Of a DNA stretch of 64,000 bases, positions 20,662 to 29,977 are shown piece after piece; the first letter of the stretch is position 1, and every line of letters starts with the position of its first letter. The translations under genes were made by a program, and so were the position numbers. The notes under the pieces are model-generated. The model was not told where the DNA came from. It saw only the letters and a program-made list of their open reading frames with translations, and did not search any database. The DNA comes from Janthinobacterium sp. 67 (GTDB taxonomy: Bacteria > Pseudomonadota > Gammaproteobacteria > Burkholderiales > Burkholderiaceae_D), in assembly GCF_002797895.1 (NCBI RefSeq), contig NZ_PGES01000001.1:5394001-5458000 (forward strand). The letters run 5' to 3'.

Positions 20662-21762
20662 ATGTACTGCAAGCAACTCGTCAAGCCCGACGGGCGCCAG
20701 CTGACCCTTTACAGCCGGCGTCCCATCGTCGCTGGTCTTGCACCGAGTCCTTTCCCCCAGCCGCAGGGAGCCAATCCGCACTTGCGCTGGCACCCCTTGC
20801 GCGGCGAGTGGGTCGCGTACGCGGCTTATCGCCAGGGCCGCACTTTCCTGCCGCCACCCCAGTACAACCCGCTGGCGCCCACGCGCGACCCTGCCCATCC
20901 GACGGAACTGCCTGCCGGCGACTACGATATCGCCGTCTTCGACAACCGCTTTCCCACCCTGGCGCTGGACGCCCACGATCCGCCCGACCTGACGGTGGCC
21001 ACAGCGCCGGCCGCCGGCCATTGCGAAGTGGTGGTGTTCGCCCAGGATGCCGGCGCCTCGCTGGGCACCTTGCCCGTCAGTCACATCGTCCTGCTGCTGC
21101 AAGCGTGGGCCGCGCGCACGCAGGAACTGGCCAGCCGGCCCGGCATCGCCTACGTGCTGCCGTTCGAAAACCGTGGCGCGGAAGTGGGCGTGACCCTGCA
21201 CCACCCGCACGGCCAGATCTATGCCTATCCCTTCGTTCCGCCCGTGCCGGCGCGCATGCTGGAGCAGGAGCGCGCGTATTTTGCCGGCCATGGCCAGGCC
21301 TTGCTGGTGGACATGGCGCGCCAGGAGGCGGACGCTGGCACGCGATTGCTGTACCTGGGACCGGAAGCCATCGCCTTTGTTCCCGCCTGCGCCCGCTATC
21401 CGTATGAAGCGTGGGTGATGCCGCGGCGGCAGACGGACAGCTTTGCGGCCCTGTCGGCGGAGCAGCGCGAGGACCTGGCGCGCGCCCTGAAAACCGTGCT
21501 GCTGAAATACGACGGCCTGTGGCAGCGCGAAATGCCCTACCTGATGGCCTGGTACCAGGCGCCGACCGATGGCCGCGCGCATCCGGAAACGCAGTTGCAC
21601 GCGCAGTTCTACCCGCCGTACCGCACGCGCGAACGGCTCAAATACCTGGCCGGCACGGAGCTGGCCGCCGGCATGTACGCCATGGATGCCTTGCCCGAGG
21701 AGTCGGCGCGGCAGTTGCAGCAAGTGCGCGTGGCATGGGAAATGTCAGAGGAAATCGCATGA
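20662..21762 (+). CDS. galT: Galactose-1-phosphate uridylyltransferase
   Basis: A 366-residue GalT. It exchanges UMP between UDP-glucose and galactose-1-phosphate in the Leloir pathway. The active-site [10 protein letters not shown] motif is intact, with [13 protein letters not shown] before it. [17 protein letters not shown] is the typical N-terminus, and HAQFYPPYR is the C-terminal nucleotide-site block. The start at 20662 has no strong ribosome-binding site. The stop overlaps the next gene's ATG (ATGA), making it the first gene of a coupled trio galT-M24-like-galK. galE and galM are not in the window. Confidence 0.95.
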
Positions 21763-22865
21763 ATTGGAATGTGGAACTGGAAATTGCCCATAAACTGGCG
21801 CAGATGCGCGGCTGGCTGGAACAGGAAAGGGCGGGCGCGCTGCGCTTGCGCGGCATGGACTGGTTCGCCTGGGCCACGGCGGGCGCGTCCTGCGGCTCAG
21901 GCCAGTCGGCCGAGTGCGGCTGCGCCGAGGTCCTCGTCACGCGCGATGCGGCCTACATCCTGACCGATGCGGCCGAGGCGCAGCGGCTGCGCCACGAAGA
22001 GGTGCGCGGCGGCTGGACGTGGCAGGTGACGCCGTGGATGCAGCCCCGGCTGGCCGAGTTGCGCGAGCATTTCGTGCAGCATGCGGCAGGCGGGCGGCCC
22101 GTGCTGAGCGACCGGCCGGGCCTGCATGAGCGCTGCCTGCCGGCCGCCTTGCGCGAAGAGCGCTTGCCCCTGCTGGCTTCGGAACAGGCGCGCTACCGCG
22201 AAGTGGGAGGCCTGGCCGCCGCGGCCGCCAGCGAAGCGCTGCGCGCCGCGCGTCCGGACTGGAGCGAGCAGGAGCTGGCCGGCGCCTGCGCCCGCGCCCT
22301 GTGGTCGCGCGGCCTGCACGCCGTGTACGTGCTGGCGGCGGGCGCCGAACGCTTCGAGCGCTACCGGCGCGCGCCGCCGGCCGCCTCGCCGCTGGGCGAG
22401 CGGGCCGTGCTGGCGCTGTGCGCGCAGCGCTTCGGCCTGTGCGCCAGCCTGAGCCGCCAGCGCCGCTTCCGCCCCGCGCGCGACGGCATGGGCGAAGCGG
22501 ACGCGGCCATCCTGGCGCTGGAAGCGGTGGCGCTCGATGCCTGCGCGGTGGGGCATGCGCTGAGCATGGTGTATCACGCGCTCGACAGCGCCTATGCGTA
22601 TGCGGGCCAGCCCGATACGGTGCAGGAATTCCGGCAGGGCGGCATCGCCGGCTACCGCTCGCCCGAAGTGGCGGCCGGCGCGCACACGGAAATCGCCCTG
22701 AAGGATGGCATGGCCCTGGCCTTCCATCCCAGCTTGCCCGGCAGCATGGTGGAAGACACTTTCGTGCTCAGCGGCGGGCGCCTGCACAACCTGACCTGCG
22801 ACCCGGACTGGCCGGCGGCAACGGTGCAGGGACGGCTGCGTCCGCTGACCCTGGAGTTGCCATGA
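21759..22865 (+). CDS. Degenerate M24-fold (creatinase/aminopeptidase P-like) protein between galT and galK
   Basis: A 368-residue protein that I place in the M24 'pita-bread' superfamily from its two-domain layout and C-terminal pattern (GMALAFHPSLPGSMVEDTFVL, then LHNLTCDPDWP). The metal ligands seem lost: the GHGIG-type His region reads RQGGIAGYRSP, the E-P-G Glu is replaced by His in AFHPS, and the DxG...D pair is not visible near LCAQRFGLCASLSR. Only the last Glu (VED) remains. Overlaps of 4 bases (ATGA) on both sides lock it into the galactose operon. A regulatory or binding role in galactose metabolism is inferred; function unknown. The N-terminus has a CGSGQSAECGCAE Cys cluster. Confidence 0.75.
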   Translation: MNWNVELEIAHKLAQMRGWLEQERAGALRLRGMDWFAWATAGASCGSGQSAECGCAEVLVTRDAAYILTDAAEAQRLRHEEVRGGWTWQVTPWMQPRLAELREHFVQHAAGGRPVLSDRPGLHERCLPAALREERLPLLASEQARYREVGGLAAAAASEALRAARPDWSEQELAGACARALWSRGLHAVYVLAAGAERFERYRRAPPAASPLGERAVLALCAQRFGLCASLSRQRRFRPARDGMGEADAAILALEAVALDACAVGHALSMVYHALDSAYAYAGQPDTVQEFRQGGIAGYRSPEVAAGAHTEIALKDGMALAFHPSLPGSMVEDTFVLSGGRLHNLTCDPDWPAATVQGRLRPLTLELP

Positions 22866-23929
22866 TCACTCCCGACGCGTATTTCGGCGCCGTTCCCGTG
22901 GTGGCGGCCTCTGCGCCCGGCAGGGTCAACCTGCTGGGCGAGCACACGGACTATAACGATGGCTACATGCTGCCGTGCGCCACGCCGCAACGCACGCGCG
23001 TGATGCTGGCGCTGGCCGCCGATGGTCACCATCAGTTCTATTCGGCGACCCTTGACGAACTCGTGCGTTTCGAGCGCCAGAGCGCCGCGCCGCCCGGTTT
23101 CGGCCGCTACCTGGAAGGCTGCATCCGCCTGCTCGAGGAGCGCGGCGTGGCCGTGCCGGCCGTGCGCGCCCATATTGATTCAGACGTGCCGCCGGGCGCC
23201 GGCCTGTCGAGCAGCGCGGCGCTCGAGATCGCCATGCTGCGCGCGCTGCGCCAGCTGCTGGGACTGCAGATTGACGACGTGTCGCTGGCGCTGATGGGGC
23301 AGCAGGCGGAAATCCGCTACGCGCAAGTCAATTGCGGCGTGATGGACCAGATGGCGTCCAGCCTGGCCGACGAGCGCCACATGTTGCTGCTCGATGCGCG
23401 CACCCTGCGCCATGAACTGCTGGCGTTGCCGCACGACAGCGAGGTGCTGGTGATCGACAGCGGCGTGCCGCGCACCCTGGCCGGCAGCGCGTACAACGTG
23501 CGGCGCGCCGAATGCGAACAGGCGGCGCGCCTGCTGGGCGTGGCTGCGCTGCGCGACGTGCGCGAACCGTCCGTGGTGGAAGGCTTGCCCGAGCCGTACC
23601 GCCGCCGCGCGCGCCACGTGGTCAGCGAAAACCTGCGCGTGCTGCAAGCGTGCGGCCAGCATGGTCCCGTGCTGTTCGGCCAGTTGATGACGCTGTCGCA
23701 CGCCAGCCTGCGCGACGACTACGAAGTGTCGCTGCCGGTGCTCGATACCTTGGTGGCGCTGCTGTCGGCGCAGTCCGCCGTGTATGGCGCGCGCCTGACG
23801 GGCGCCGGTTTTGGCGGCGCCTGCGTGGCCCTGTGCCGCAAGCAGTGCGCGGCTAGCACGGGGCGCACGGTGGTACAGCGCTTTAACACGGAAGGACACA
23901 GTGCACGCATGGTGGTTCCCTTGAATTGA
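22862..23929 (+). CDS. galK: Galactokinase
   Basis: A 355-residue GHMP-family kinase that phosphorylates galactose to galactose-1-phosphate with ATP. All signatures are present: the galactokinase motif GRVNLLGEHTDYNDGYMLP, the phosphate loop PPGAGLSSSAALE, the catalytic Asp segment CGVMDQMASSL, and the C-terminal ARLTGAGFGGACVAL. The ATG at 22862 overlaps the preceding stop by 4 bases. A weak hairpin followed by CTTTTTC (23951-23972) could attenuate transcription into the GH2 gene. Confidence 0.96.
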   Translation: MITPDAYFGAVPVVAASAPGRVNLLGEHTDYNDGYMLPCATPQRTRVMLALAADGHHQFYSATLDELVRFERQSAAPPGFGRYLEGCIRLLEERGVAVPAVRAHIDSDVPPGAGLSSSAALEIAMLRALRQLLGLQIDDVSLALMGQQAEIRYAQVNCGVMDQMASSLADERHMLLLDARTLRHELLALPHDSEVLVIDSGVPRTLAGSAYNVRRAECEQAARLLGVAALRDVREPSVVEGLPEPYRRRARHVVSENLRVLQACGQHGPVLFGQLMTLSHASLRDDYEVSLPVLDTLVALLSAQSAVYGARLTGAGFGGACVALCRKQCAASTGRTVVQRFNTEGHSARMVVPLN

Positions 23930-23974: not shown

Positions 23975-25843
23975 TTGGAACTTGGCCCGTGCCGCATGCC
24001 TCCAATTGGCATGCTCAATGACTCTCTCCCCCCACCCCATACGGACGGCCAGGCCGGAACCGCCCCGCCTGAAGCGGGCGGCTTTGCGTATCCCCGGCCG
24101 CAGATGGTGCGCGAAAACTGGCAGTCGTTGAACGGCGCCTGGCGTTTTACCTTCGACAATGAACGGCGCTACCGGCTGCCCGATGGCGGCATCGACTGGA
24201 CGCACGAGATCATCGTGCCGTTCCCGCCCGAGTCGCAGGCCAGCGGCGTCGGCGACCGGGGCTTCCACCGCGTTTGCTGGTACCAGCGCGAGTTCCTGCT
24301 GCAGCCGGGCGGCCCCTGCGTGCTGCTGCATTTCGGTGCCGTCGACTACCATGCGAAGGTGTGGCTGAACGGTCATGTGGTGGCCGACCACGAGGGCGGA
24401 CATACGCCGTTTGTCGCCCACATCAGCCATGCCCTGCTGCCCGACGGGCCGCAAGTGCTGACGGTGCGCGTCGAGGACGACCCGCACGACCTGGCCAAGC
24501 CGCGCGGCAAGCAGGACTGGCAGCTGCTGCCCCATTCCATCTGGTATCCGCGCACCACGGGTATCTGGCAAAGCGTGTGGATAGAGCGCGTGGCGTCCAC
24601 CTACATCGGCAAGCTGCGCTGGACGCCCGTGTTCGAGGGCTACGAGATCGGCTGCGACGTGTTCGCCATGGGCGACCTGCAGGACGACCTCACGGTGGGC
24701 GTGCGCATCTGGCATGGCGACAACCTGCTGGCCGACGACCAGTATAAATTGATCGAAAACGAGGCGAGCCGCAAGATCGCCCTGTCCGACCCCGGCATCG
24801 ACGATTCGCGCAACGAACTGCTGTGGAGTCCCGAAAGGCCCATCCTGCTCGATGCCGAAGTGACCTTGTGGCATGGCGATGAGCTGCTCGACACGGTCAA
24901 GTCGTACACGGCGCTGCGCTCGGTGGCCATCAACCGCGACCGCTTCATGCTCAATGGCCGGCCGTATCCGCTGCGCCTCGTGCTCGACCAGGGTTACTGG
25001 CCCGACACCCTGCTGGCGGCGCCTTCCGACGACGCCCTGCGGCGCGACGTGGAACTGGCCAAGGCCCTGGGTTTCAACGGCGTGCGCAAGCACCAGAAGA
25101 TCGAAGATCCGCGCTACCTGTACTGGGCCGACCGCCTGGGCTTGCTGGTATGGGAAGAAATGCCATCGACCTACCGCTTTTCCAGCAAGGCCATCACGCG
25201 CATGGTGCGCGAATGGACGGACGTGATCGAGCGCGACTATAGCCACCCGTGCATCCTCGTCTGGGTGCCGTTCAATGAATCGTGGGGCGTGCCCAACCTG
25301 ACGGCCATCCAGGCCCACCGCAACGCCGTCGAAGCGCTGTACCACCTGACGCGCACGCTCGACCCCACGCGGCCCGTGATCGGCAACGACGGCTGGGAAG
25401 CGTCGGCCACCGACATCCTCGGCATCCACGATTACGACTGCGATCCGGAGCGGCTGCAGGCGCGCTACGCGATCAGCGACTCGGCCCGCACGACCCTGTT
25501 CGACCAGCGCCGGCCCGGCGGGCGCATCCTCACGCTCGACGGCTTTCCGCACCGGGGCCAGCCCATCGTCCTCACGGAATTCGGCGGCATCGCCTTTGAC
25601 AGGGAACAGGGCGAATCGGCGGAAACCTGGGGCTATGCGCGCGTGGGCAACGAGGCGGCCTTCCTCGACATTTACCGGCGCCTGATGAACGTCGTCAACA
25701 CGGCGCAGATGTTCAGCGGCTTTTGCTACACGCAGTTTGCCGACACCTTCCAGGAAGCCAATGGCCTGCTGACGGCGGACCGAACGCCGAAGGCCGCGCT
25801 GGAGCTGCTCAGCGCGGCCACCCGCAATATCCGGCTCAATTGA
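23975..25843 (+). CDS. Glycoside hydrolase family 2 enzyme (beta-galactosidase/beta-glucuronidase type)
   Basis: A protein of up to 622 residues with the GH2 architecture: jelly-roll sugar-binding domain (WQSLNGAWRFTFDNE, WYQREFLLQ, HFGAVDYHAKVWLNG), an immunoglobulin-like middle domain, and a TIM barrel. The acid/base Glu is in WVPFNESWG (residue 435 from the TTG) and the nucleophile in ILTEFGG-like VLTEFGGIAF (residue 535). The 5' limit is uncertain: the TTG at 23975 has no ribosome-binding site, and ATGs at 23996 and 24011 are alternatives. No signal peptide is seen, so it acts in the cytoplasm. Position behind galT/galK suggests it releases galactose, though beta-mannosidase or glucuronidase activity is possible. 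Confidence 0.9.
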   Translation: MELGPCRMPPIGMLNDSLPPPHTDGQAGTAPPEAGGFAYPRPQMVRENWQSLNGAWRFTFDNERRYRLPDGGIDWTHEIIVPFPPESQASGVGDRGFHRVCWYQREFLLQPGGPCVLLHFGAVDYHAKVWLNGHVVADHEGGHTPFVAHISHALLPDGPQVLTVRVEDDPHDLAKPRGKQDWQLLPHSIWYPRTTGIWQSVWIERVASTYIGKLRWTPVFEGYEIGCDVFAMGDLQDDLTVGVRIWHGDNLLADDQYKLIENEASRKIALSDPGIDDSRNELLWSPERPILLDAEVTLWHGDELLDTVKSYTALRSVAINRDRFMLNGRPYPLRLVLDQGYWPDTLLAAPSDDALRRDVELAKALGFNGVRKHQKIEDPRYLYWADRLGLLVWEEMPSTYRFSSKAITRMVREWTDVIERDYSHPCILVWVPFNESWGVPNLTAIQAHRNAVEALYHLTRTLDPTRPVIGNDGWEASATDILGIHDYDCDPERLQARYAISDSARTTLFDQRRPGGRILTLDGFPHRGQPIVLTEFGGIAFDREQGESAETWGYARVGNEAAFLDIYRRLMNVVNTAQMFSGFCYTQFADTFQEANGLLTADRTPKAALELLSAATRNIRLN

Positions 25844-25897: not shown

Positions 25898-28800
25898 ATG
25901 GCCGATACCGATGGCGCGGCAGCGCCGTTCCTTACCTACTGGCAGGCGGGCTACGAGGGCGCCGACCACGTCACCCATGGCGGCCATGCGCTGGACATGA
26001 ACCGCGCCACGGGCCACCTGGACAGGGTGCGCGCGGACTACCTGCTGCTGCGCCAGTTCGGCATCCGCAGCGTGCGCGAAAGCATAGGCTGGCGCCTGGC
26101 CGAGCGCGATGGCCAGTTCGACTTTTCCTTCATCGAAGAGCGCGCCGCCGTGGCGCAGGAACTGGGCCTGCAGATCAACTGGACCTTCTGCCATTACGGC
26201 TGGCCGCCCGAGGTCGATCTGTTCTCGTCCGACTTCGTGCCGCGCTTTGCCCGCTATTGCCGGGCGGCGGCGCAGTTCCTCGCGCCGTATGCGGGCAGTG
26301 CGCCCGTGTATTCGCCCATCAATGAAATCTCGTTTACCAGCTGGGGCTTGTCCGTGCACATGTTCCAGTGCCTGAATATGTACCGGCCCGATGCGGGCGA
26401 GGAAGGCAAGCGGCAGCTGGTGCGGGCCACCGTGGCGGGCTGCGACGCCATCCGCGCCGTCAGCCCGCAGGCGCGCTTCTTGCAATGCGATCCCCTGATC
26501 CATGTGATCGCGCCGCCCGGACGCACGGACTGGGTCGGACAGGCTGCCGCCTGGCGCGCTTCGCAGTTCGAAGCGTGGGACATGCTGTGCGGCCGGCAAG
26601 CGCCGGAACTGGGCGGCGCGCCCCGTTACCTGGACTTGATCGGCTTGAACTATTACCACAGCAACCAGTGGGAAAGCGGCAGCAATTTGCGCCTGTGGTG
26701 GCACCTGGGCGAACCGCGCCGCATGCCCCTGCACCAGCTGCTGCTGGAAATGCAGGCGCGCTACCAGCGGCCCCTGCTGCTGGCGGAAACGAGCCACGTG
26801 GGCAGCGGGCGCGGCGCGTGGATACGCGAGGTGGCCGCCGAGGCGGCGCTTGCCGTCCAGCATGGCGCCGCGCTGCGCGGCATCTGCATCTATCCCGTCA
26901 TCGACCGGCCCGACTGGGACGATGCCAGCCACTGGCACCGCAGCGGCCTGTGGGATGTCGGCCTGGAAGGCGAGGGGGAAGAGCGGTTGCGGCGCATCCT
27001 CGTGCCCCCTTACGCGGCGGCACTACGGCAGGCGCAGCGCCTGACCGGACAACTTTGTTCAACGTTTGCCCTGGCGGGGCAGAAAGGAACTGGCATGCGA
27101 ACCATCATCGTTTTTTCCCATTTGCGCTGGAATTTCGTGTATCAGCGTCCGCAACAGCTGCTGTCGCGGCTGGCGCAGTTCTACCGCGTGGTCTTCGTCG
27201 AGGAACCCGTCTGGCACGATGGGCCGGGCACGCTGGAACTGTCCACGCCGGCGCCGAACGTGACCGTGTGCCAGCCCCGCACGGCCGTGCAGGCGCCCGG
27301 CTTTCACGACGACCAACTGGCCGTGCTGCAGCCCCTGCTGAGCCAGATCACGCCTGCCGACGACCCCATCGTATGGTTCTATACCCCGATGGCGCTGCCG
27401 CTGCTGCCGGCCCTGCATGCGGGCCTGGTCGTGTATGACTGCATGGATGAACTGGCCGCATTCAGGAATGCGCCGCGCCAGTTGCTGCAGCGCGAGACGG
27501 CCTTGCTGGCGCGCGCCGACCTCGTGTTCGCCGGCGGCCCCAGCCTGTTCGAGGCGAAGCGCACGCGCCACGCCAACGTCCATTGCTTCGCCAGCAGTGT
27601 CGACACCGTGCACTTCGAACAGGCGCTGGACCGCCACAACGGCCATCCCGCGCAAGCGGAGATCGGCCGGCCCAGGCTGGGATATTACGGCTTGATCGAC
27701 GAGCGTTTCGAGCCGGCCCTGGTGGCGGCGCTGGCCGACGCCCATCCCGAGTGGCAAATCGTGCTGGTCGGCCCCATCCTCAAGATCGATCCGGCCAGCC
27801 TGCCGCAGCGGCAGAACATCCATTATCTGGGCCAGCAGCCTTACCAGGCGCTGCCGCACTTCCTGGCCGGCTGGGACGTCTGCCTGCTGCCCTTCGCCAG
27901 CAATGAGGCGACCCGCTTCATCAGTCCGACCAAGGTGCTCGAATACATGGCGGCGCAGCTGCCCATCGTCAGCACCCCGATCGCCGATGTGGCCGTGCCG
28001 TATGGCGACATCGTGGCGATCGCCGACACGCCGGAAGCCTTTGTCGCCGCCTGCGAGGCGGCGCTGGCCGCGACGCCGGAACAGCGCGCGGCCATGGCCG
28101 CCAGCATGCGCGCCATCGTCGATGCCACCTCCTGGGATGCCACGGTGGAGCAGATGCGCCATTTGCTCGACACGACGCCGCCGGGGCAGGGCGTCCGCCA
28201 GGCGGTGCCCGCCGCCGGCGCGGCGCAAGCCGCCGCACCTGGCGCCGACGTCAACCTCTTGCGCCCCCCGGGCGCGCCGCAAGCCGTGGCCTGCGCCATC
28301 ATCGGCGCCGGCCCGACGGGCTTGAGCGCCGCCTATCACCTGGGTGCCGATACCTTGTTGCTGGACAAAAATGCCGCCGTGGGCGGCTGGTGCCGCTCCA
28401 TCCAGGAGCGGGGATTTACCTTCGATCATGCGGGCCACATCATGTTTTCCAACGACGACTATGTGCTCGACATGTACCGCACCTTGCTGGGCACCAACCT
28501 GCACTGGCAAAACCGCGAAGCCTGGGTGTACAGCAAGCAGGTCTACACGCGCTATCCATTCCAGGGAGCGTTGTACGGCTTGCCGCCGGCCGTCATCAAG
28601 GAGTGCATCGTCGGTGCCATCGAGGCGCGCTATGGCAAGGCGCCGGCCGCCCCGGGCCAGGCAGCGGCCGCGGCCTGCGCCGTGGAAGACTGTTGCGCCG
28701 ATGGGGGCACGGGGCTGGAGCAGGTGCACGATGCCGTGGCGGCGCCGGCCCAAGCACAAGCCCAGAGCGCGCCCAATTTCGAGCAATTCATCCATCAGGT

Positions 28801-29728
28801 GTGGGGCAGCGGCATCGCCCGCCATTTCGCCATTCCCTACAACAAGAAATTGTGGACCGTCCCCCTGTCCGAGATGGAAACGTCGTGGCTGGGCGGGCGC
28901 GTGCCCTTGCCGAACCTGGACGAAATCATCGAGGGCGCGCTTGAACCGGTGGCCAAGCCGATGGGCCCGAACGCGCGCTTCGGCTATCCTTTGCAGGGCG
29001 GTTTCCAGGCCTTGATGTCGGGCTTCCTGCGGCACCTGCAAGGCAAGCTGGAATTGAATGCCGATGTGGTGCAGGTCTTGCCACGGCAGCACGTGATCGT
29101 GCTGGGCGATGGCCGCCGCTTCCGCTACCAGCACTTGCTCAGCACCATGCCCTTGCCGCAGCTGGTGCGCCTGATCGGCGAACAGGCGCCGCCACAAGTG
29201 CGGGCGGCGGCGAGCGCCTTGCGGCATATTTCCGTGCGCTGCGTCAACCTGGGCGTGGCGCGCGAAAACATCAGCGAGAAACACTGGATTTACTATCCGG
29301 AAGAGACGATATTTCACCGCATTTTCCTGCAAGGTAACGCCAGTCCCCATTGCAACGCGCCGGGCGGTTTCGGCCTGACGTGCGAGATCAGTTACTCGCC
29401 CTGGAAACCGTTGCCGCTCGATGGACAGGCCCTGATCGACCGCTGCGTGGCCGATTGCATCGCGGTGGGCTTGCTGCGCGACGATGACCGCCTGCTGGCG
29501 GCCAACCAGGTGGACATGCCCTACGCCTACGTGGTGTACGACCATGCGCGGGCTGCCAATGTGGCGCTGGTGAAGGCATGGCTGTCCACGCAGGATATCG
29601 TGCTGGCGGGACGCTACAGCGAGTGGGAATACTACAATTCCGACCATGCCTTCCTGGCCGGGAAAAAAGCGGCGGAACTGATCGCCGGGCTGGCCGCCAG
29701 CCAGCGCAAGATGGGCATGGTGGAATAG
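25898..29728 (+). CDS. Three-module fusion: GH-A clan glycosidase, GT4 glycosyltransferase, UDP-galactopyranose mutase-like flavoprotein
   Basis: A 1276-residue protein. Residues 1 to about 390 form a clan GH-A TIM barrel: acid/base Asn-Glu in YSPINEISF (E143) and nucleophile in LLLAETSHVG (E297). Residues 400 to about 770 are a GT4-like glycosyltransferase (MRTIIVFSHLRWNFVYQRPQ, VVYDCMDELAAF, FISPTKVLEYMAAQLP). An Ala/Pro-rich linker leads to residues 800-1276, a flavoprotein with the dinucleotide motif AIIGAGPTGLSAAYHL and GHIMFSNDDYVLDMY, YPFQGALYGLPP, resembling UDP-galactopyranose mutases. A low-complexity Ala/Gln/Cys insert lies at about 915-960. At residue 400 an in-frame ATG (27095) has AAAGGA just upstream, so a separate GT-flavoprotein may also be made. 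Neighbouring galactose genes suggest a UDP-galactose-based glycan pathway. Confidence 0.88.
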   Translation: MADTDGAAAPFLTYWQAGYEGADHVTHGGHALDMNRATGHLDRVRADYLLLRQFGIRSVRESIGWRLAERDGQFDFSFIEERAAVAQELGLQINWTFCHYGWPPEVDLFSSDFVPRFARYCRAAAQFLAPYAGSAPVYSPINEISFTSWGLSVHMFQCLNMYRPDAGEEGKRQLVRATVAGCDAIRAVSPQARFLQCDPLIHVIAPPGRTDWVGQAAAWRASQFEAWDMLCGRQAPELGGAPRYLDLIGLNYYHSNQWESGSNLRLWWHLGEPRRMPLHQLLLEMQARYQRPLLLAETSHVGSGRGAWIREVAAEAALAVQHGAALRGICIYPVIDRPDWDDASHWHRSGLWDVGLEGEGEERLRRILVPPYAAALRQAQRLTGQLCSTFALAGQKGTGMRTIIVFSHLRWNFVYQRPQQLLSRLAQFYRVVFVEEPVWHDGPGTLELSTPAPNVTVCQPRTAVQAPGFHDDQLAVLQPLLSQITPADDPIVWFYTPMALPLLPALHAGLVVYDCMDELAAFRNAPRQLLQRETALLARADLVFAGGPSLFEAKRTRHANVHCFASSVDTVHFEQALDRHNGHPAQAEIGRPRLGYYGLIDERFEPALVAALADAHPEWQIVLVGPILKIDPASLPQRQNIHYLGQQPYQALPHFLAGWDVCLLPFASNEATRFISPTKVLEYMAAQLPIVSTPIADVAVPYGDIVAIADTPEAFVAACEAALAATPEQRAAMAASMRAIVDATSWDATVEQMRHLLDTTPPGQGVRQAVPAAGAAQAAAPGADVNLLRPPGAPQAVACAIIGAGPTGLSAAYHLGADTLLLDKNAAVGGWCRSIQERGFTFDHAGHIMFSNDDYVLDMYRTLLGTNLHWQNREAWVYSKQVYTRYPFQGALYGLPPAVIKECIVGAIEARYGKAPAAPGQAAAAACAVEDCCADGGTGLEQVHDAVAAPAQAQAQSAPNFEQFIHQVWGSGIARHFAIPYNKKLWTVPLSEMETSWLGGRVPLPNLDEIIEGALEPVAKPMGPNARFGYPLQGGFQALMSGFLRHLQGKLELNADVVQVLPRQHVIVLGDGRRFRYQHLLSTMPLPQLVRLIGEQAPPQVRAAASALRHISVRCVNLGVARENISEKHWIYYPEETIFHRIFLQGNASPHCNAPGGFGLTCEISYSPWKPLPLDGQALIDRCVADCIAVGLLRDDDRLLAANQVDMPYAYVVYDHARAANVALVKAWLSTQDIVLAGRYSEWEYYNSDHAFLAGKKAAELIAGLAASQRKMGMVE

Positions 29729-29822
29729 GTGCTTGCGCCGGGAGCACAGGAAGGCGCTCCCGGCGCGGAACAGACACGATGAGCACGACGGGCATGGGGA
29801 ACGATGAAGATGGGGGACTAGC

Positions 29823-29946
29823 AACAGGAACAGGAACAGGAACAGGAACAGGAACAGGAACAGGAAGCCAACAGGCAACAGGCAACAGGCAACAGGCAAC
29901 AGGCAACAGGCAACAGGCAACAGGCAACAGGCAACAGGCAACAGGC
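29823..29946 (+). repeat. Tandem repeats: 7 x AACAGG then 11 x AACAGGC
   Basis: Seven perfect copies of the hexamer AACAGG (29823-29864), the bridge AAGCC, then eleven perfect copies of the heptamer AACAGGC (29870-29946). Frames through it read (TG)n or QQATGNR repeats, without gene-like context, so I treat it as non-coding. Units of this kind expand and shrink by slippage. It lies 95 bases after the fusion gene's stop. Confidence 0.95.
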
Positions 29947-29977
29947 AAGGCAGATGGGATTTGCCTTGCCTGTTGCC
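29937..29977 (+). terminator. Strong 16-bp hairpin closing the tandem array
   Basis: GGCAACAGGCAAGGCA (29937-29952) pairs perfectly with TGCCTTGCCTGTTGCC (29962-29977) around a 9-base loop. The left arm uses the last array unit, and other units could pair with CCTGTTGCC in its place. No T-tract follows, so it is a possible transcript end or 3' stabiliser rather than a classical terminator. Confidence 0.45.

Follow-up and report, generated by a model that had tools for sequence, protein, structure and literature searches.

A Janthinobacterium gene joining a glycosidase, a glycosyltransferase and a predicted UDP-galactopyranose mutase, with a probable internal translation start

Introduction

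What might a bacterium do with a single polypeptide on which a glycosidase, a glycosyltransferase and a flavoprotein follow one another? The question is raised by a gene of Janthinobacterium sp. 67, found in a 64,000-nucleotide stretch of DNA (assembly GCF_002797895.1, contig NZ_PGES01000001.1, positions 5,394,001 to 5,458,000) that is here called the window. The gene occupies window positions 25898..29728 (+) and consists of one open frame, which runs from an ATG at 25898 to a stop codon ending at 29728 and encodes 1276 amino acids (aa) with zero internal stops. An earlier note on this DNA had proposed that the chain trims and extends a glycan while supplying the activated sugar, and so could channel substrate in exopolysaccharide or galactofuranose-type synthesis. 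The analysis described here suggests that the gene is likely to encode a cytoplasmic galactofuranosylation unit composed of a mutase, a glycosyltransferase (GT) and a glycosidase (GH), and produced as two nested proteins.

Open reading frame (ORF), Pfam, structure-database and relative searches resolve the gene into GH, GT and uridine diphosphate (UDP)-galactopyranose mutase (UGM) modules, in that order. The glycosidase module covers residues 1-385 (25898..27052, +), is assigned to family GH1 by profile and contains the catalytic pair E143/E297. It is followed by a TuaH-like GT4 module at about residues 400-770 (27095..28207, +), assigned by Pfam and NCBIfam, and by a flavin module at residues 794-1276 plus the stop codon (28277..29728, +), assigned as a eukaryote-type UGM by sequence match and by a distribution complementary to that of the bacterial enzyme Glf. 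At the GH/GT joint (27084..27097, +), a Shine-Dalgarno (SD) sequence, AAGGA at 27084-27088, precedes an in-frame ATG at 27095-27097, a probable second translation start for an 877-aa GT-UGM chain. Domain, profile and structure matches thus bear out the three modules on a single chain, and the motifs quoted in the earlier note are all present (NE142-143, E297, YQRPQ, SPTKVLEYM, GAGPTGLSAA and GHIMFSNDDYV). The module types are known; literature searches returned no recognisable description of a GH-GT-UGM or GT-UGM fusion, and none was found for the fusion with its nested start.

The fused gene and its relatives

Among the matches listed, 119 of 120 relatives have lengths of 1240-1354 aa and align over 96-100% of the query. 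Within the genus, the fused gene is carried by 13 of 40 Janthinobacterium genomes, and all 13 cover at least residues 9-1265 without stops. A broader locus set was formed from the best 80 of 596 confirmed stretches. One locus that runs off its contig (L047) was left out, so that 79 loci and the window make a set of 80 genes. GH-GT-UGM fusions account for 54 of these (53 loci and the window), and the remaining 26 are without a fused GH. Fused genes were found in Oxalobacteraceae, Nitrosomonadaceae, Erwiniaceae and other Enterobacterales, Shewanella, Rheinheimera, Lysobacteraceae, Polaromonas, Variovorax and others, so the order that the earlier note had suggested looking for is conserved in Oxalobacteraceae and in several other proteobacterial groups.

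These counts also bear on whether adjacent genes were merely joined by a sequencing error or a lost stop codon. Distant relatives do have the modules as two or three separate genes, as such an artefact would predict. However, 53 loci besides the window are fused, across several orders, and the gene is full length in every one of the 13 Janthinobacterium genomes that carry it. The artefact was rejected on these counts and its probability is negligible. Of the case that the earlier note had set out against itself, the separate genes in distant relatives are real; for this lineage the other half, a lost stop or a base-calling error, is ruled out.

The flavin module as a UDP-galactopyranose mutase

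By Pfam, the flavin domain is recognized at residues 801-862 (PF13450) and 807-865 (PF01593). The whole module matches solved eukaryotic UGMs over its full length (4dsg, 9e-46; 3ute, 6.7e-42), and a separate structure search gave a best E-value of 7.4e-45 for this class. Thirteen of the substrate- and flavin-contact residues tabulated for the Aspergillus fumigatus enzyme (PMC3624792) were checked; 13/13 are identical in the window protein and invariant in 80/80 relatives. A further contact residue, Q458, is not kept and is Ser here, which is a point against the assignment. The bacterial Glf model, TIGR00031, gives the window protein 16.2 bits, under the cut-off of 303.75, and finds no match at E 0.001 in the strain's own genome. 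The eukaryotic and bacterial mutase types share 14-18% identity only, as given in PMC3624792. The C-terminal module resembles the eukaryotic-type UGMs of A. fumigatus and Trypanosoma cruzi over its length and in the thirteen contact residues; it differs from them in being bacterial and fused to a GT, and its activity is a predicted one. Bacterial Glf belongs to another sequence class, yet it occupies the slot of the UGM module in the cassette. Sequence and genomic distribution together strongly support the module as a mutase which would convert UDP-galactopyranose to UDP-galactofuranose.

The exchange with Glf was followed in a family sample of 294 genomes, 106 of which had a match. The genomes are related and therefore not independent. 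Glf above the cut-off was present in 43/44 genomes with a GT that lacks the UGM module, in none of the 25 genomes with the full fusion only, and in 4/188 genomes with neither fusion nor GT. Conversely, the GT is present in 56 of the 60 Glf-bearing genomes. The survey scored the best two candidates per genome and, in a second scoring, six, so extra copies were possibly missed; split matches were merged for G353, G354, G406, G423, G457 and G518. When 13 genomes whose GT lacks the UGM module were inspected directly, 12 had Glf, and Glf is absent from all 40 Janthinobacterium genomes searched. Two results count against a strict exchange: Glf also occurs in 13/37 genomes with GT-UGM only, and one genome with a UGM-less GT (G352) has no Glf. 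A case of replacement may be seen in Comamonas, where a GH-GT fusion is accompanied by Glf. In the GH tree the Comamonas-type GH lies within the fused clade beside Variovorax and Polaromonas, with a support of 96 by the Shimodaira-Hasegawa-like approximate likelihood-ratio test (SH-aLRT). Because this GH nests inside the fused clade, Glf seems to have replaced the UGM module there; the GT tree leaves the placement unresolved.

Some relatives of UGM accept other substrates. It could accordingly be asked whether the flavin module acts on a different sugar nucleotide (UDP-GalNAc or a deoxysugar, for instance), with the GT transferring that furanose. Galactose genes adjoin the fused gene, and the module exchanges with Glf proteins that pass the cut-off of the UDP-galactopyranose mutase model, which together make this alternative improbable. 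The suggestion of the earlier note that a mutase supplies the activated furanose to the GT is well supported.

The glycosyltransferase and its donor

A GT group 1 domain (PF13692) was identified at residues 610-723 with an E-value of 1.8e-10 and a score of 41.7, above the cut-off of 27. The best NCBIfam match is TuaH, the GT4 of teichuronic acid synthesis (NF047676, 5.6e-19), although the score of 68.3 bits is far under the equivalog cut-off of 550. A partnership with Glf or UGM is, to our knowledge, not a TuaH trait. Since Glf stands in for an absent UGM module in nearly all such family genomes (43/44), the GT would most simply be taken to require UDP-galactofuranose, and it is probably a UDP-galactofuranose-dependent transferase. 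Characterised galactofuranosyltransferases are described as few so far (PMC7278926).

The glycosidase module

The domain search proposed in the earlier note recovered the GT4 and flavin domains and left the glycosidase without a Pfam match. At an E-value limit of 0.1, Pfam recognizes nothing in residues 1-385, so that the PF00232 cut-off is not reached, and the GH1 assignment comes by profile. PF00232 does appear in the precomputed annotation of 10/120 relatives among the matches listed. A profile built from 39 glycosidase modules matches GH1 enzymes of solved structure (179 chains; best E-value 5.3e-24), and in the profile alignment the NE pair and E297 coincide with the acid/base and the nucleophile of GH1. 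N142/E143 are kept in 53/54 fused genes and E297 in 54/54; in 30 modules taken from fused and unfused cassettes, all three residues are present in every one. Speaking against an active enzyme throughout the family, the fused GH of one locus (L019) lacks the acid/base residue. The module thus shares its catalytic Glu pair with GH1 beta-glucosidases, whose solved structures its profile matches; unlike them, it has no Pfam match and is joined to biosynthetic enzymes.

No signal peptide was seen by eye. The GH and GT trees are congruent (r 0.81, permutation maximum 0.37, n=30). Every tree comes from a quick search with SH-aLRT as its only branch support, and the GH, GT and mutase trees omit L093-L095, L099-L101 and L124, in which the GT or mutase is cut or absent.

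An internal start at the GH/GT joint

An in-frame ATG is found at the GH/GT joint in 54/54 fused genes. The SD energy ahead of it averages -6.79 kcal/mol in these genes, compared with -2.74 at 1313 other internal ATGs. Under 2000 synonymous shufflings the mean is -4.61 kcal/mol (standard deviation 0.28, lowest -5.55). An SD of -5 or better is present in 44/54 fused genes, where the shuffles average 21 and reach a maximum of 32. The SD is therefore kept beyond codon choice in the fused genes. The linkers around it vary, with 47 distinct 7-residue strings in the 54 fused genes and the SD in two codon phases. Moreover, 26/26 genes without a fused GH start at this very ATG, all with an SD of -5 or better and a mean of -7.73 kcal/mol. 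Two single cases add to this. In Nitrosospira sp. Nsp11 the SD and ATG are intact behind a broken GH, and a protein recorded for Janthinobacterium sp. NKUCC06_STL, read at the protein level, begins exactly at this Met. As the joint SD and ATG are conserved, two nested proteins are quite probably made from the gene, the full GH-GT-UGM chain and the 877-aa GT-UGM chain. The internal start is a new point, absent from the earlier note.

Several results pull the other way. The SD is weaker than -5 in 10/54 fused genes (Chimaeribacter and a relative, Lysobacteraceae, Variovorax and one Nitrosomonas), and among five GH-GT genes that lack the UGM module, three have practically no SD (-2.8, -2.8 and +0.4). 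The window's own SD alone is unexceptional against its shuffles (fraction 0.082). When one gene is taken per genus, 20/27 reach -5 or better (shuffle mean 10.4, maximum 21), and the mean of -6.60 against a shuffled -4.52 (standard deviation 0.31, lowest -5.50) is a smaller excess than that per gene. One locus, L057, is an open-frame read-through over a GH2 gene and not a fusion; it was dropped from the 54 and is still counted as fused in the contact-residue, per-genus and single-site shuffle analyses.

The gene might instead yield only the three-module chain, with the internal SD and ATG as an unused leftover of a formerly separate GT-UGM gene. Unfused relatives truly start at this position, and the weak SDs of the ten fused genes fit this reading. 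Still, the SD has been retained beyond codon choice despite the differing linkers, and the GH-less genes themselves begin at this ATG, which makes a single product distinctly less likely than the nested pair. Genes with an in-frame internal start offer a parallel, such as cas8b, for whose product Cas11b an internal start is proven (PMC11899642). There, too, an internal Met in one frame yields the C-terminal part alone; the second protein is proven in that system and predicted for the window gene, whose modules are sugar-metabolism enzymes.

Arrangement and history of the cassette

The three modules form a cassette that is spread over several phyla as three genes, as two-plus-one fusions or as one gene. 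Deinococcus actinosclerus has separate GH, GT and Glf genes in that order, and in Skermanella and Chryseobacterium the order is GT, Glf, GH. A GT-Glf fusion followed by GH was found in Azospirillum, a GH-GT fusion with Glf as the next gene in two Comamonas, and GH followed by GT-UGM, downstream of a GH2 gene, in two Acidobacteriota. Methylomagnum carries GT-UGM, GH2, galT, galK and GH, which are the window's parts in unfused form. An even sample of 299 genomes from the phylum contains GH in 12; of the 11 besides the window's, 10 have the GT and nine have Glf in the fetched stretch. In one genome (G157) GH and GT are fused and Glf lies at another site of that genome.

Against a constant association stand a genome with GH alone, with neither GT nor mutase (G217), and a Deinococcus radiophilus plasmid in which GH is joined to an acyl-CoA dehydrogenase-like protein (L099 5989-8238) with no GT or mutase nearby. 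This plasmid is one of 15 regions hand-picked out of 181 and 130 matching records; among them, Agrobacterium and Paracoccus regions have the GT and no Glf in the stretch. Another, from A. thermophilum, has Glf without the GT in the stretch.

Other arrangements were also observed. In two Sinorhizobium plasmids (L093 and L095) GH stands behind a different GT4 on one chain, and the adjoining genes encode a GT4-GFO/IDH-zinc dehydrogenase protein and a GT-Glf fusion; all these parts appear as separate matches in L122. In an Ewingella americana plasmid (L092) the fused gene is apparently in pieces in different frames. A GH1-like module is fused to an RmlD-like module (L083 10759-12930; Noviherbaspirillum L083 and L084) beside GT-UGM or GT and Glf, and L138 and L140 have a similar gene order, GH1-like then RmlD-like, in the same company, which makes a second pairing of a glycosidase with a sugar-nucleotide enzyme. 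These proteins resemble the window gene in placing a GH1-type module on or next to a sugar-nucleotide enzyme; they differ in that the GH is just 24-27% identical and the partner is RmlD-like.

A GT-UGM tree of 81 rows requires at least 10 changes of the fused state, seven of them forced by starred branches (quick method). Because the fused GHs form a single starred clade, one fusion followed by repeated loss of the GH is the likely history. Nitrosospira sp. Nsp11 retains a frameshifted GH remnant (L077 7992-8343), with most of the GH deleted, before an open GT-UGM frame. The probable internal start, together with the recurrent lack of a fused glycosidase among relatives, speaks for the glycosidase being optional beside GT-UGM.

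Proposed mechanism

In the proposed scheme, the UGM module would make UDP-galactofuranose from UDP-galactopyranose and the GT4 module would transfer galactofuranose to an acceptor; of these two steps, the mutase step has the firmer support. The GH1-type module would be an active retaining glycosidase or transglycosidase working on the acceptor or product of the GT, dispensable for the core reaction. Its complete active-site pair, the lack of a signal peptide, its evolution in step with the GT and its repeated loss point tentatively to trimming or editing of the acceptor or product, a role that is nearer to possible than to probable. Ribosomes would also initiate at the internal ATG at 27095 and produce the GT-UGM chain beside the full chain. 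With two nested proteins, a cell would be able to adjust how much glycosidase it has relative to transferase.

Genomic neighbourhood

In the window, the fused gene is preceded by galT, encoding galactose-1-phosphate uridylyltransferase (20662..21762, +; PF01087, PF02744), and galK, encoding galactokinase (22859..23929, +; PF00288, PF10509, PF08544). Between them lies an ORF (21759..22865, +) whose start overlaps the galT stop and which matches no Pfam family at E 0.001. A GH2 family glycosidase gene (23975..25843, +; PF02836/PF02837) ends 54 nt before the fused gene, and its true start is probably downstream of 23975. In the genus, the GH2 gene is present in 12/13 Janthinobacterium genomes with the fused gene and in none of the others among the 40, while this galK is present in 10/40 genomes, all among the 13 with the fusion. 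GH2, galK and the fused gene are thus gained or lost as a set. Across the 80 loci, a homologous GH2 occurs in 36. Of 16 loci with a UGM-less GT, six lie behind a GH2 gene, five of these six with galK ahead of it, and four have Glf in the stretch. Salvage by way of the upstream GH2, galK and galT would provide UDP-galactose in Janthinobacterium.

This setting raises the further alternative that the fused glycosidase is itself a supply enzyme, which releases galactose or an acceptor sugar in the cytoplasm from a glycoside, to feed the mutase and transferase, as the GH2 may do. It would suit the adjoining galK and galT in the window and in Methylomagnum, as well as the closeness of the GH to beta-glycosidases. 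However, in most listed cassette relatives (such as Deinococcus, Skermanella and Comamonas) the stretch that was fetched shows neither galK nor galT, and the GH evolves in step with the GT. A supply role is therefore a lesser possibility, somewhat less likely than trimming or editing.

The exopolysaccharide setting of the earlier note was not borne out. No polysaccharide polymerase or exporter was found among the 12 neighbouring ORFs scanned (19.4-36.1 kb), and an exopolysaccharide cluster was rejected, as the gene sits behind galT, the family-less ORF, galK and GH2, in a galactose salvage context. The other scanned neighbours, namely a luciferase-like monooxygenase, a VanZ-like protein (below cut-off), a short-chain dehydrogenase, two TPM proteins, LemA, an orotidine decarboxylase and one family-less ORF, look unrelated to the fused gene. 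Right behind the fused gene lies a tandem GCAACAG array of 19.6 copies (window 29821-29948).

Further neighbours were recorded in the searched loci. A Zn-alcohol dehydrogenase occurs in 12 and DUF421 in eight of them, in Nitrosospira, Nitrosovibrio, Nitrosomonas and Pantoea (e.g., L021 6454-7614 and 4352-4885). In other cassettes, CsbD, Mn catalase, DUF892 or Ku/LigD genes were found close by. A stress setting is possibly indicated by these neighbours, whose numbers are raw counts. An ATP-binding cassette (ABC) exporter adjoins GH in eight separate or partly fused cassettes (L089, L098, L100 and L117-L121), and in Variovorax (L050, 58.6% identical) it stands directly behind the fused gene. Exporters in Chimaeribacter and one Nitrosospira are 34-37% identical only. 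With no match in the remaining loci searched, the exporter was rejected as a constant partner.

Significance

There is about an even chance that one open frame provides both a self-contained galactofuranosylation protein (GH-GT-UGM) and a GT-UGM protein, and that the GT is the first of a widespread class of GT4 galactofuranosyltransferases so far undescribed. Such transferases would work with a glycosidase dedicated to them in the cytoplasm, on a surface or membrane glycoside that falls outside the known pathways for O-antigen, capsule and galactan. The cassette exhibits a natural exchange between two mutase types of low identity, and an operon joint that turned into a gene fusion with its internal start apparently retained. 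It predicts a new GT4 class in environmental bacteria, whose donor may be read from the partner mutase and for which a single protein would be available to test.

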